Below are positions 4,832 through 22,562 of a DNA stretch of 22,562 nucleotides, one piece after another. A program made the position numbers and the translations under genes. The notes below the pieces were generated by a model that was given only the letters and a program-made list of their open reading frames with translations, was not told the origin of the DNA and made no database searches. Location: positions 93,449 to 116,010 of the forward strand of contig JAMYWO010000080.1 of the NCBI GenBank assembly GCA_024220525.1, in the 5' to 3' direction. This DNA is from Cochliopodium minus (Eukaryota > Discosea > Himatismenida > Cochliopodiidae). How positions within the stretch are numbered: the stretch's first letter is position 1; every line of letters starts with the position of its first letter.

Positions 4832-6099
4832 TCATTTCTTTTGTTTGATTTTGATGATAGCAGCAGATACTTGCACTATACAACTCTTGATAAATTGAGT
4901 AAAGCTGGTAGCCATGCTAAGAAGTCTATCATGGCTACCCTTTTGACCCAAACTAGCAGAGGAAATTATAGCAACGATCTTGAGTTGGACAGCATAGTTT
5001 TTGAGACCTTGAGCATCTCTCAACATCTGTTCTCTTACAAAAGGATCAGGACTTTGGTTAGCAAGATTGGTGAATTCTTTTACGAGTTCGTTGATGTTAA
5101 CAGCAACACTTCTCCCAGCATTGATGACGCCTTGTTTATCTTGTTTCTCTGCAGCCTCTGCCATTATGCCCAAATCTTCAGCAATTTGGAGTATTCTCTT
5201 GATGGCAGGCTCGTTGGAAAAGTCGTTGTTGATTGCTTTCTTCATTACAGAAGACTCAATATCAGATGTGAGGTTACTGATCTGACCTCCCAAAGAGTTG
5301 AGATCCTTGTTGGAGTGTTGGTTCTTCTTTTGGATTCCTTCCTCCTTTCTTTTTCTCTCTTCTTCTTTTCTATTTTTCTCTTCTTCTTCCCTTCTAATTC
5401 TTTCCTCCTCTTCTCTTCTAATTTTTTCCTCCTCTTCCTTTCTCCTTCTTTCCTCTTCCTCTTCCTTTTTTATTCTTTCCTCTTCTTCCTTTCTAATTTT
5501 CTCCTCCTCTTCCACCCTTCTCTTTCTTTCCTCTTCCTCTTCCTTTTTGATTCTTTCCTCTTCCTCCTTTTTGATTCTTTCCTCTTCTTCCTTTCTAATT
5601 CTTTCCTCCTCTTCCTTTCTCCTTCTTTCCTCTTCCTCTTCCTTTTTGATTCTTTCCTCCTCTTCCTTTCTAATTTTCTCCTCCTCTTCCACCCTTCTCT
5701 TTCTTTCCTCCTCTTCCTTTTTGATTCTTTCCTCCTCTTCCTTTCTAATTCTCTCCTCCTCTTTCTCCCTTCTCTTTCTTTCCTCCTCTTCCTTTTTTAT
5801 TCTTTCCTCCTCTTCCTTTCTCCTTCTTTCCTCCTCTTCCTTTCTCCTTCTTTCCTCTTCCTCCTTTTTGTTCCTTTCCTCTTCTTCCTTTCTAATTCTT
5901 TCCTCCTCTTCTCTTCTAATCCTTTCGACCTCCTCCCTTCTCTTTCTTTCCTCTTCCTCCTTTCTAATTCTCTCCTCCTCTTTCTTATTATCAAGATTAA
6001 TTTGTTCAACTTTCAATTGTTGCCTGATTTTGTTTTGATCTTCAAGGAGATTAATGTTTTTGATTTTGCAACCACAATACCATCCTCTTTGAATCCATC
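4832..6099 (-). CDS. Long charged coiled-coil protein with C-terminal helical (talin/I-LWEQ-like) domain, 5' partial
   Basis: One long minus-strand exon from a probable acceptor NCAG at 6103-6100 to the stop at 4832. There is no in-frame ATG before the C-terminal domain, so the 5' end is missing; the model stops at the ambiguous base 6103. After about 40 residues comes a roughly 220-residue array of near-identical units built on (R/K)(I/K/R)(R/K)KEEEER, predicted as a continuous charged alpha-helix/coiled coil. The last ~160 residues (from SNLTSDIESS to the end) are an all-alpha domain with IKRILQIAEDLGIMAEAAEK, DPFVREQMLRDAQGLKN and LLSMATSFTQFIKS, which resemble talin-rod, vinculin or I/LWEQ helical bundles that bind actin. 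That similarity is judged by eye. The plus-strand Leu/Ser/Phe-rich reading over the same bases is a shadow of the GAGGAA repeat. Confidence 0.68.
5340..5990. repeat. GAGGAA-type coding tandem repeat
   Basis: On the plus strand this is an almost pure pyrimidine tract (tcctcttcctttctaattct and variants), encoding on the minus strand the KEEEER coiled-coil units. Longer units of about 80-100 nt recur, for instance the segment around 5480-5530 is closely repeated around 5660-5710 (VEEEEKIRKEEEERIKKEEE in protein), which points to tandem duplication within the array. Copy number from such a tract is vulnerable to assembly collapse. Confidence 0.85.
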
Positions 6100-18853: not shown

Positions 18854-21093
18854 TTATGATAAAAAAATTTGTTTCAATTCAGAATAAACTTTGGATAGTT
18901 TTTCATTATGAGAAAAAATGGAAAGATCCACACTAAGAAGTGGGTTTTTATCAAAAGATCCGTTCTGAATAATCTTCCATTGTCTTTGTAAATGATTAAA
19001 AATTTTAAAAGAATAAACAAAAAAAATAAAATACAAAGTTCCCAAGGAAATAGAAAAACAAGTGAGACTGTTGATGTCCAGAGATTTGTTGTCCTTTAAA
19101 GAAGACTGCAAAAGATTGGCCAAACCCAAAAGCTTGTTGTGCTCACTCTCCTCATAAAAAATGGTCAAATTTAAAAGATAAGCAGAAACTGCAAACTTGT
19201 GATTGTCGGTCCCCTTTGAAAGAATATATAAAGCAATATCGACAGAAAAGGTGTCCAAGTTGATATTTTTAGAGTTAGAAAGCTTGAAACAGTTGCAGAG
19301 GAAGTGTACTGCAAATTCGAAGGTTGCTTCATCGAACTTTCCGTTGAGCTGGTTGTACTTGGAAAGGATGTGTGTTTTGAGTAGCTCTATCAACTCTAAT
19401 TTAATGTAATTCTCTGAATCGTGATGCCTAAAGAAAAAATTTTGATTAAAAATAATTTTGAAGGAATTTAAAAAAGATTAAAAAAAATGTAAAATAAATA
19501 ATTTAAAATAAATGAATAAAATAATATTACAAAGAAAATTGTCTTAAAAGATCAAGGACAGGAAATAATTTGGCTAATGGCCACAACTTGATAGAAGTAG
19601 ATATAGTTTCTATAAAGGTGGAAGCGCTCTCCTTGTCAAAAGAAGAAGAGTGGTAGTAGCTTCTGTTGCTCAACACGGACTCCACTTTGTTTATTGAAGA
19701 AATTTCTTTTTGGGTGAATGGTTTGATTACCAATGTGTTTTCTTTTGAAAGTTGTTCGTTTGTAGTAACTATTCTATTTGCAACCTAAATTAGAAAGAAA
19801 GTAAAAAAAAAAATTAGATTGAAAAAATGTAAAATTAAAAGTTAAAGAAAAGGAGAAAAGATAATAAATAAAAAATAAAAGATAAAAAATTTGAAATAAA
19901 AAATAAAAATTTGAAATAAAAAATAAAAAATTTGAAATAAAAAATTTGAAATAAAAAATTTGAAATAAAAAAGATAAATTTGAAAACGAAATTTTTTCCA
20001 CAATGAAACATTTACTTTGGAGAGATCGTTTTTGTTCAAAAAAGTGAAAATTTTTGTCTCAGGAAAATGTTGATATGGAGACTTTTTCTTTGACGAAGTT
20101 TGTAAACTAGAAGAAGAGTGAAAATCAATCTTATTTCTTAAATCTAAGTCGAAATAAAAAAAATTTTTTAAAAAAAAAAATGGAAAAATATTCAAAAAAA
20201 AAAATGAAAAAAAAAATGAAAAAAAAAAATTTTTTTTTAAAATTTTACCAGATTCAGAAGCTCCTTCCAACATATCTTTTTTTTTGTAATTTTTTTTTTT
20301 TAAGATTTTTTTAATTTTTAATTTTTTTTTTAGATCCTTGCCTACTTCTTGGTTGTTCTTGAAAAACTTGAAAGTGGGATATGCTCTCACGTTTTTGCTC
20401 ATTGCCACTTCTCTGAGCTGATCTCCGTCTACTTTTAGAAATACCACATTTTTGTATTCCAATGACATTTGTTCCTAATATAAAAAATTAAAATAAAATT
20501 AAGCTTTCTTTGTATTTTTAATGTAAAAATTCTTACAAAAATCTTTTTTTAATTTTATTTTTTTAGTTGTGAAATAACTTTTCTTTTCATTTTTTTTTTA
20601 CTGGCGCAATATACTGTTTAGATTTTTAAAAAGAATCATTTTGTTAGATAAATTTGGATTATTATTTTTATTTTAAGAATATGCCTTGCATGGACCACAC
20701 CTTTAGAATTTGTTTTTCAATTAATCACCATTTTTTATAGAGAACAATTATTTACCATACTGCATAAAAATCGACAACAACTATTTTTTGATGTTGAATA
20801 AGTTTATTGTTGGAAAAATAATGAGTTTATTCCATTTGAAAATCTTTCTAAAAAAATATTTTTTACCCAATTTATCCCCTATTGTTCCATATCATCAATT
20901 ATAAAAAGTTTGTTAATTGATTTCTTTTGTTATTTTACCAGCAGTTTCAATCAATATATCAAATTCATCTTTGCCTTTAAAAAAATGAATATATTAAAAA
21001 TTATGAAGCAGATGTTGAATGATTTGAAGAAATGATTTTGAAAAAGGAAGAATTTATTTTACTTTGAACTAAAGTAACATTTCCATGACTCAT
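18854..21093 (-). CDS. Thioredoxin-PUL domain protein built from many microexons
   Basis: Thirteen exons (minus): 21093..21063, 20974..20939, 20878..20867, 20780..20756, 20700..20685, 20613..20602, 20542..20537, 20474..20342, 20275..20249, 20143..20016, 19784..19531, 19427..19035 and 18983..18854; total 400 aa. Residues 1-~105 are a thioredoxin that aligns without gaps to the animal protein: DEFDILIETAGDKLVVVDFY, active site WCGPCKYIAP, VVFLKVDGDQ and the cis-proline region AYPTFKFFKN. A Ser/Lys linker leads to a PUL domain (QHFPETKIFTFLNKNDLSK, LWPLAKLFPVLDLLRQFSL, NGKFDEATFEFAVHFLCN). PUL is an armadillo-like fold that, in Doa1/PLAA, binds Cdc48/p97. Thioredoxin plus PUL is known in proteins that also carry a PPPDE peptidase; none is seen here. 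Two introns are GC-AG; the last (51 nt) is in frame without a stop. Confidence 0.85.
19885..19985. repeat. Tandem repeat of aaaaatttgaaataa units
   Basis: Five or six imperfect copies of a 15-21-nt unit (tttgaaataaaaaa with variable A runs) inside the 231-nt intron 19785..20015 of the thioredoxin-PUL gene. It makes the Phe/Tyr/Ile-rich false reading on the minus strand. Confidence 0.75.
20276..20341 (-). other. GC-AG intron before the EGAS exon
   Basis: The donor GTAG|GCAAGG matches the usual GC-donor consensus (AG|GCAAGT). Splicing GTA G|AT gives NNQEVDMLEGASES with thioredoxin spacing. Reading through would insert a Lys-rich stretch, and using GT at 20345 breaks the frame. Confidence 0.65.
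20537..20700 (-). other. Microexon cluster (16, 12 and 6 nt) encoding CGPCK-YIAP-IF
   Basis: Three consecutive tiny exons: 20700..20685 (completes Trp, then CGPCK), 20613..20602 (YIAP) and 20542..20537 (ATTTTT, Ile-Phe). The flanking sites are CTAAAG|, AAG|GCATAT, AACAG|, CCA|GTAAAA, AAAAG| and |GTAAGA. Together they give CGPCKYIAPIFEQMSLEY, the exact thioredoxin spacing; leaving out any exon deletes conserved residues. Intervening introns are 71, 59 and 62 nt. Confidence 0.8.
20614..20684 (-). other. GC-AG intron after CGPCK
   Basis: The donor is AAG|GCATAT and the acceptor CTAAACAG. No GT dinucleotide exists between the CGPCK codons and the YIAP exon, so a GC donor is required to keep the thioredoxin frame. 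Confidence 0.7.
20756..20878 (-). other. Microexon pair (12 and 25 nt) encoding GDKL-VVVDFYAVW
   Basis: Exon 20878..20867 (GGGATAAATTGG) lies between AATAG and GTAAAA; exon 20780..20756 lies between AAATAG and GTAAAT. Spliced in phase they give AGDKLVVVDFYAVW, the thioredoxin beta-strand before the active site. The intron between them is 86 nt and contains an in-frame stop. Confidence 0.78.
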
Positions 21094-21424: not shown

Positions 21425-22562
21425 ATGGATAATAAAAGCAAAAAAGAAGAAACACCATTGATATCTACGATTCAAACTGTCACACCATTGCCCATGAAAC
21501 AAATGATAATCATAATGATTGCCACAGCGAGTGAAGCGTAAAATATTTCAAATGAAATAATACTCTGAATATATCAACTAAAATGCAATTTATTTTGATC
21601 AGATTGACAACTACTTTGGTGCTGCCTGTATATCTGATAAAAATAAAAGATTATTCAAAAATTAAATGGATTTTTCATTTCTTCTTTGTTAGTTCATTGT
21701 GTTTATGATCAGAGGATTTGGATACGAAGAGAAAGATGTTGGATATTATGCAGGCATTTTAATTTTTAATTTTTATTTTTTTTTTACAATTTAAAATTTA
21801 AAAATAATTAAATAATACATTTCTCCAATAGGTATCTTGACATCATCTCTCTATTTTAACCAATTCATATCTTCATACGTATTTGGAAGACTGTCAGACT
21901 GGAAAGGTTTGCATACAACTACATTCAAAAAAATTCTTCGAATTAATTTTTCAAATCAAAAATAGGGAGAAAACCTTTTCTATTGTTTGGTTTATTCTCA
22001 AATGCTGTATTGATAATTGGGTAATTTTTTAAAGTATTATTCAAATAAATTAATTTTTTTTGATTAGATTTGGTTTAAGCAAAAACTTTTGGATGGCGCT
22101 TGTGTTGAGAAGTCTCATTGGATTATTGAATGGAAATTCAGGATTGATCAAGTGTGTTGTGAGGTAAAAATAGAATAGAATGAGAAATAAGAAAATTAAA
22201 CAAATTTTTTTTTTAAATAAAGAGAAGTTGCAGATAATACAAATCAAAGTAGATCTTTTTCATTGAGAGCAACTGCATGGGTATTAAAAATCAAATTTAG
22301 TTTCAATATTAATTTTAATTTTTTAAAAAATTTTTCTAAAAAAAAAAAGGGAGTTGGGTTTTCATTGGGTCCTATTGTTGGAGGATATCTTTCAAATCCT
22401 AATGAAAATATTGCCAATGTTTTTGGTTCTTTTTTCACCAAATTTCCATACTTTCTCCCTTGTCTTTTTTCTTCGCTAATCAATTTAGTTGGATTTATTT
22501 TGTGTGTGATCTGGTTTAAAGAAACAAAACCTCCAAAACCTCTCTTTGAAAACAAAATAAAA
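21425..22562 (+). CDS. Major facilitator superfamily transporter (ZIFL/Tpo-like), 3' partial
   Basis: Exons 21425..21537, 21603..21627 (25 nt), 21693..21753, 21832..21906, 21966..22020, 22068..22163, 22223..22280 and 22350..>22562; 232 codons to the window edge, all in phase. TM1 spans PLPMKQMIIIMIATASEALT; then DVGYYAGILTSSLYFNQF, the MFS loop 2-3 signature GRLSDWKGRKP, FWMALVLRSLIGLLNGNSGL, REVADNTNQSRSFS and AWGVGFSIGPIVGGYLSNP. These wordings are typical of the ZINC-INDUCED FACILITATOR-like/multidrug H+-coupled group; the substrate is unknown. TMs 1-6 are present and the second half lies outside. The intron after YYAG (21754..21831) is GC-AG. A dileucine-like acidic N-terminus (EETPLI) suggests an endosomal or vacuolar membrane, as an inference. 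Confidence 0.88.
21754..21831 (+). other. GC-AG intron in the MFS gene
   Basis: The donor is GCAG|GCATTT and the acceptor CCAATAG|GT. No GT occurs between the YYAG codons and the acceptor, and the join G|GT restores YYAGILTSS, so the GC donor is required. Confidence 0.78.

Follow-up and report, generated by a model that had tools for sequence, protein, structure and literature searches.

Microexons are familiar chiefly from animal neurons, where they are regulated, and from scattered examples in plants. The available extract of a plant study describes small microexons of 1–15 nt, for example in APC11 and VPS55, some of which are absent from the genome annotation, and adjacent microexons of 5 and 12 nt in rice (PMC8831610). 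The gene described here, a fusion of a thioredoxin and a PUL domain, resembles those cases in that tiny coding exons (down to 1 nt in plants) lie inside conserved proteins, but the plant microexons of that extract are single or two adjacent, whereas here five exons of at most 25 nt are consecutive (PMC8831610). The MEGs of Schistosoma likewise have many short exons (3–81 bp); in the part of the source available their products are secreted and highly variable, and their introns reach 5 kb (PMC10526429). The thioredoxin-PUL gene differs from them as they appear in that text (PMC10526429) in encoding conserved Pfam folds, in being fragmented only in its 5′ part and in its introns, which are 51–231 nt in length, so that the long introns between tiny exons by which MEGs are recognized were not found.

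For animal neuronal microexons, an excerpted C. elegans paper treats intron definition as the default for short introns, holds exon definition across microexons to be sterically infeasible, and reports that PRP-40 becomes less necessary where the flanking introns are very short (PMC8378409). The exons of the thioredoxin-PUL gene are like these in being of a size held too small for exon definition, but neuronal microexons are, in the same excerpt, mostly regulated (PMC8378409), while those of the thioredoxin-PUL gene are probably constitutive. Microexons of 3–15 nt have also been searched for in the ichthyosporean Creolimax, as far as the extract at hand goes (PMC4739763). A search of the open-licence PMC literature found no report of microexon runs in conserved protist genes.

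Structure of the thioredoxin-PUL gene

The window is a stretch of 22,562 nt (C80:93449-116010) from a 44.65-Mb assembly of 598 contigs, whose introns mark it as eukaryotic. The evidence comes from the window, from six-frame searches of the same genome and from stretches taken from that genome. The gene lies on the minus strand of the window from 21093 to 18854, where it ends in a stop codon, and consists of 13 exons encoding 400 amino acids (Table 1). When the exons were joined by computed splicing, the reading frame was open through all 13, with no frameshift and no premature stop. A first-pass annotation of this DNA had proposed nine exons of 31, 36, 12, 25, 16, 12, 6, 133 and 27 nt, and we located them exactly as claimed, on the minus strand from 21093 to 20249; their phases, said to agree throughout, did so when the nine were joined in frame. 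The extent assigned to the gene, 20249 to 21093, was correct for these nine exons but too short for the whole, as four more exons (128, 254, 393 and 130 nt) lead down to the stop at 18854.

By length and splice dinucleotides, six internal exons of 6–27 nt qualify as microexons of 30 nt or less (exons 3, 4, 5, 6, 7 and 9), all with AG acceptors and with GT donors except for a GC after exon 5. Five of them, of 12, 25, 16, 12 and 6 nt, are consecutive. Fragmentation is confined to the 5′ part of the gene.

Table 1. Exons of the thioredoxin-PUL gene (positions in the window; shuffles are single-exon interval shuffles reaching the score) and two Rab loci with very small exons (positions in their contigs).
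Feature	Position	Strand	Content	Donor	Following intron	Basis or control
Exon 1	21063..21093	-	31 nt, start codon	GTAAAATA	88 nt	ATG, frame and donor; outside aligned part
Exon 2	20939..20974	-	36 nt	GTAAAATA	60 nt	aligned at penalties 6 and 8
Exon 3	20867..20878	-	12 nt, GDKL	GTAAAAAA	86 nt	aligned at penalties 6 and 8; shuffles 15/300
Exon 4	20756..20780	-	25 nt, VVVDFYAVW	GTAAATAA	55 nt	aligned; shuffles 0/300
Exon 5	20685..20700	-	16 nt, active-site CGPCK	GC donor GCATATTC, 3rd percentile	71 nt	shuffles 0/300
Exon 6	20602..20613	-	12 nt, YIAP	GTAAAAAA	59 nt	aligned; shuffles 0/300
Exon 7	20537..20542	-	6 nt, IF; acceptor AAAG	GTAAGAAT	62 nt	shuffles 2/300
Exon 8	20342..20474	-	133 nt, greater part of the remaining thioredoxin domain	GC donor GCAAGGAT, 3rd percentile	66 nt	
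Exon 9	20249..20275	-	27 nt	GTAAAATT	105 nt	first 23 nt aligned
Exon 10	20016..20143	-	128 nt, thioredoxin end, linker and PUL start		231 nt	
Exon 11	19531..19784	-	254 nt, PUL domain		103 nt	
Exon 12	19035..19427	-	393 nt, PUL domain	2nd percentile	51 nt	
Exon 13	18854..18983	-	130 nt, including stop codon			
L083	C72:18100-20050	minus	Rab gene, 2-nt exon TG			needed for conserved WDTAGQ frame
L124	C375:13574-15500	plus	Rab gene, 4-nt exon GCGG			needed for conserved WDTAGQ frame

We compared the spliced nine-exon product with thioredoxins in the PDB. It matched the LECA thioredoxin at E = 1.5e-28 and gave a gap-free alignment with chain u16335 across residues 8-98, which upholds the earlier description of one gapless thioredoxin domain. 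Both Pfam domains scored over their curated cut-offs: Thioredoxin (PF00085) at residues 8-105 with E 1.5e-27 and 96 bits against 23.5, and PUL (PF08324) at residues 126-359 with E 5e-17 and 62.5 bits against 25.5. Part of the PUL domain was matched even in unspliced sequence (E 5.1e-6). The WCGPC active site is present, and WCGPCK straddles the junction of exons 4 and 5. The product had been taken for a housekeeping thioredoxin, but it is not a plain thioredoxin; the gene is a thioredoxin-PUL fusion (PF00085 plus PF08324). A PDB search with the PUL part gave weak, unrelated matches only, and a search of the literature on a thioredoxin-PUL protein found nothing relevant. PUL proteins are adaptors of p97/Cdc48, and binding of p97/Cdc48 by this protein is predicted from the family; the protein would then be a p97/Cdc48-type adaptor carrying a CGPC redox domain.

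To recover the exons independently of their earlier description, a purpose-written spliced protein-to-DNA aligner (GT/GC-AG introns, BLOSUM62) was run with the LECA thioredoxin as query. Exons 2-9 were recovered unprompted at intron penalties of 6 and 8; being local, the alignment missed the outermost ends of exons 2 and 9 by 1 and 4 nt, respectively. At penalties of 10, 12 and 14, exons 4-9 were kept and exons 2 and 3 were swapped for an in-frame extension of exon 4. The spliced score at penalty 6 was 205, and the alignment from the 133-nt exon onwards scored 118 by itself. When the part 5′ of the 133-nt exon was replaced by dinucleotide shuffles, none of 500 reached 205 (maximum 135), nor did any of 169 genuine window segments inserted there instead (maximum 143). 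Given these two controls we reject a chance assembly of the thioredoxin as very unlikely, as the first-pass annotation had also thought.

An intron-poor second copy had been named as a finding that would count against the locus. Such a copy was looked for in the genome and not found, and the same search found no second thioredoxin-PUL gene of any kind. The nearest thioredoxin elsewhere is a plain thioredoxin at C27, with 46% identity and its domain in one open frame. There are three other PUL matches in the genome, and the stretches around them gave no credible thioredoxin alignment (scores 40-49).

Rfam and tRNA scans of the window found nothing. On its minus strand, 4832-6016 is a long reading frame whose charged repeats abound in Glu, Lys and Arg; it has no Pfam match at E 0.01. 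A search of the genome for Fe-hydrogenase gave a single place with two neighboring matches, whereas a rich set would be expected of an anaerobe.

Small exons and intron turnover in other gene families

Other thioredoxin-fold loci were sampled in 20 stretches, which did not take in the C1 cluster and C367; in 19 of them there were 0-3 introns under 200 nt. Small exons do occur elsewhere in the thioredoxin family, with one of 22 nt in L027 and one of 21 nt in each of L019 and L026. The latter two (C186 and C276) are PDI-like paralogues in which the 21-nt exon coincides in position and phase, and the L019 intron before it has a GC donor. Another thioredoxin-fold locus, L028 (C266:36600-40000, minus), contains consecutive candidate exons of 21, 19, 32 and 8 nt at a low score (84). 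At C1:447875-451663, minus strand, ten successive thioredoxin-domain matches lie in one open frame of 1521 aa.

We also spliced 60 Ras-family loci against a profile built from 20 of the genome's own single-exon paralogues; these loci are enriched for 5′ introns because they were picked for a matched piece lacking the N-terminal part. Across the first 40 of these loci we counted 0.60 internal exons of at most 30 nt per locus versus 0.23 in shuffled runs, so some unscreened calls must be false, and each candidate was therefore put through a single-exon shuffle test. Counting internal exons that measure at most 30 nt and have an intron of up to 400 nt on each side, we obtained 42 candidates, 38 of which passed (0/25 shuffles reached the score). 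The supported exons measured 2-30 nt, most commonly 18 or 20 nt (17/38). The remaining four, of 1, 4, 4 and 8 nt, were matched in score by 4 to 12 of 25 shuffles and were not counted. The smallest supported exons were a 2-nt TG belonging to the tryptophan codon of WDTAG in L083 and a 4-nt GCGG in L124; neither length is a multiple of 3, so skipping either exon would break the frame.

The thioredoxin-PUL gene exceeds these loci in two respects. Consecutive internal exons of at most 30 nt numbered no more than two in the Ras family (9/60 loci) versus five here, and the number of introns within 100 nt of coding sequence was at most four versus six. Of 18 UBC-family loci, 5 had one unscreened internal candidate of 3-13 nt each, and several of these adjoin introns of 30 or 261-782 nt. 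The UBC figure, together with the few introns of most thioredoxin-fold stretches, indicates that dense fragmentation is not uniform. Judged by these gene models, tiny exons recur in the genome, unevenly across genes, and the thioredoxin-PUL gene is the extreme among those examined. A Ras-like match at C1:633782-634150, minus strand, lies inside an open frame listed at 14711 aa, which is extraordinary beside such intron-rich genes.

Among the 150 listed of 164 Ras matches, 38 pieces span the domain, 87 lack the N-terminal part only, 9 lack the C-terminal part only and 16 lack both. Pieces are not equal to genes, and the 5′ bias is a property of these 150; within them, the ratio of 87 to 9 indicates that introns crowd the 5′ half. 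Intron positions were compared in 56 of the 60 loci, with four dropped, and sharing counts by subfamily were left out, as a simple subfamily rule misplaced L074 and L090. The 56 loci had 194 introns at 84 positions, 52 of which were seen once. Common positions amounted to 18/63 in pairs at 60-70% identity and 5/12 at 70-80%, and L055 and L057, which are 79% identical, had only one intron in five in common. In a strict set (introns of 40-300 nt, GTA donors, 6 nt of slack), 14 pairs with at least 60% identity shared 21 of 56. Because Ras paralogues at least 60% identical share only about a third of their intron positions, fast intron turnover, with gain, is likely in this lineage.

Dense introns could instead be ancestral, with an extremely intron-rich ancestor losing them differentially, mostly at 3′ ends via reverse-transcribed mRNA, and with little gain. 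The strong 5′ bias of the 150 listed Ras pieces would suit such a history, as would the 38 that have the domain in one frame. So would two thioredoxin introns that agree in position and phase with introns of other loci, one after W27 in phase 2 with L027 and one after K32 in phase 0 with L020, in our reading, which allowed an offset of one residue. However, loss by itself would need a Ras ancestor with 66 exact intron positions, of which 63 would fall within the first 240 nt, or with 24 clusters if positions within 6 nt are merged (156 strict introns), which makes repeated gain the simpler reading. The L055/L057 pair also speaks against it, and we regard an ancestral origin as unlikely. The massive intron gain suggested at first for this lineage is thus supported indirectly, by Ras-family paralogues with few common intron positions, and we do not claim it for the thioredoxin-PUL gene itself. 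Introners reportedly drive fast intron gain in some lineages. The likeness to the present case would be the fast gain; the difference is that no introner family was evident in a sample of 114 Ras introns, in which there were 4 between-locus similarities at E<1e-4 versus 1 in shuffled introns.

Individual exons and splice sites

Single-exon shuffles covered exons 3-7; exon 1 lies outside the aligned part. Taken alone, exon 3 is weak, with 15 of 300 shuffles reaching its score; two candidate exons were found around it, and only the 12-nt one is stop-free. Only one in-frame AG..GT exon of 3-90 nt fits into the 127 nt that separate exons 6 and 8, namely the 6-nt ATTTTT. It encodes Ile-Phe at a place where the LECA thioredoxin has Phe-Phe and LAFCA has Lys-Phe. 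Swapping this exon for a run of T improved the score by 6, since TTTTTT reads as Phe-Phe, the pair found in the LECA sequence.

Ten of the 12 donors are GT and two, those of introns 5 and 8, are GC, while all 12 acceptors are AG. The claim that every small exon has its own acceptor and donor holds, with the correction that exons 5 and 8 are followed by GC in place of GT. We trained a donor matrix on 185 Ras-family introns and tested it on 21093-20249, where the six real GT donors scored above the other 23 of 29 GTs. Acceptors were scarcely informative (17 of 40 AGs pass; 8 are real). Measured against Ras donors, three are weak, with both GC donors standing at the 3rd percentile and that of intron 12 at the 2nd. 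No branch-point motif was widespread in the 185 Ras introns, the best 5-mer being TACTC in 9 of them versus 2.1 expected. By eye, a transporter-like gene on the plus strand of the window has an apparent GC donor (GCAG/GCATTT) within 21754-21831, with its acceptor at 21830-21831, also read by eye. Three GC-AG introns, this one and introns 5 and 8, would then lie close together, versus about 1% among the 185 Ras introns.

A real thioredoxin gene might still contain decoy or alternative exons, with the symmetric exons 3, 6 and 7 (12, 12 and 6 nt) skipped in some or all mRNAs. All three are multiples of 3 and could act as in-frame cassettes, and shuffles did reach the scores of exons 3 and 7, the latter in 2 of 300. 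Skipping any of the three, however, leaves a gap against residues present in the aligned PDB thioredoxins, in agreement with the earlier statement that dropping exons removes conserved residues. Exon 6 was never equalled by its shuffles, the interval of exon 7 holds that candidate only, and the donors of exons 3, 6 and 7 stand at the 84th, 77th and 26th percentiles of Ras donors. We therefore consider skipping improbable.

A decaying pseudogene retaining thioredoxin-like fragments might be suspected from the three weak donors (introns 5, 8 and 12), but we reject this as very improbable, given an open frame over 13 exons, free of frameshifts and premature stops, two domains over their Pfam cut-offs and no second copy found in the genome. 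Least probable of all, and likewise rejected, is that the interruptions are DNA segments eliminated from the genome, as the internal eliminated sequences of ciliates are: many short AT-rich interruptions do lie within one coding sequence, but every one of the 12 starts with GT or GC and finishes with AG, the majority having the donor consensus of the genome, and the segments that Paramecium eliminates have TA at their boundaries.

A model for splicing and its implications

At the level of the sequence, the exon order, the phases, the conserved residues, the quality of the donors and the completeness of the gene are established. We consider it quite probable that this is an intact gene, found once in the genome, whose 5′ part has been cut by short introns into a run of microexons that are spliced by intron definition, in a lineage with fast intron gain and loss. 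The spliceosome would recognize each intron as a unit. Intron definition across introns as short as these, mostly with GTAAAW donors, would leave exon length little constrained, and the median intron length of 70 nt in the Ras family (121 introns, first 40 loci) fits such a mode. For the 6-nt exon, one flanking intron would probably be removed first, which would join the microexon to its neighbor, and the second intron would then be recognized. Clusters of microexons may accumulate through quick intron gain and loss in the lineage, mostly near the 5′ ends of genes.

A broader proposal, which we offer tentatively, is that the spliceosome of this lineage is almost exclusively intron-defining and tolerates serial constitutive microexons in many genes (6 nt here; 4 and 2 nt in the two Rab genes), with turnover so fast that paralogues of 60-80% identity share a minority of intron positions.

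Ordinary gene prediction may miss exons of this kind, and misannotation is described as pervasive in plants in the extract available (PMC8831610). A microbial eukaryote with conserved domains in consecutive microexons would let the minimum exon size, the order of intron removal and the 5′ pile-up of introns be asked about directly, and the lineage is a good place to study the splicing of very small exons. If it does combine splicing almost only by intron definition with fast turnover, it would offer a natural laboratory in which to study intron gain and how short an exon can become.
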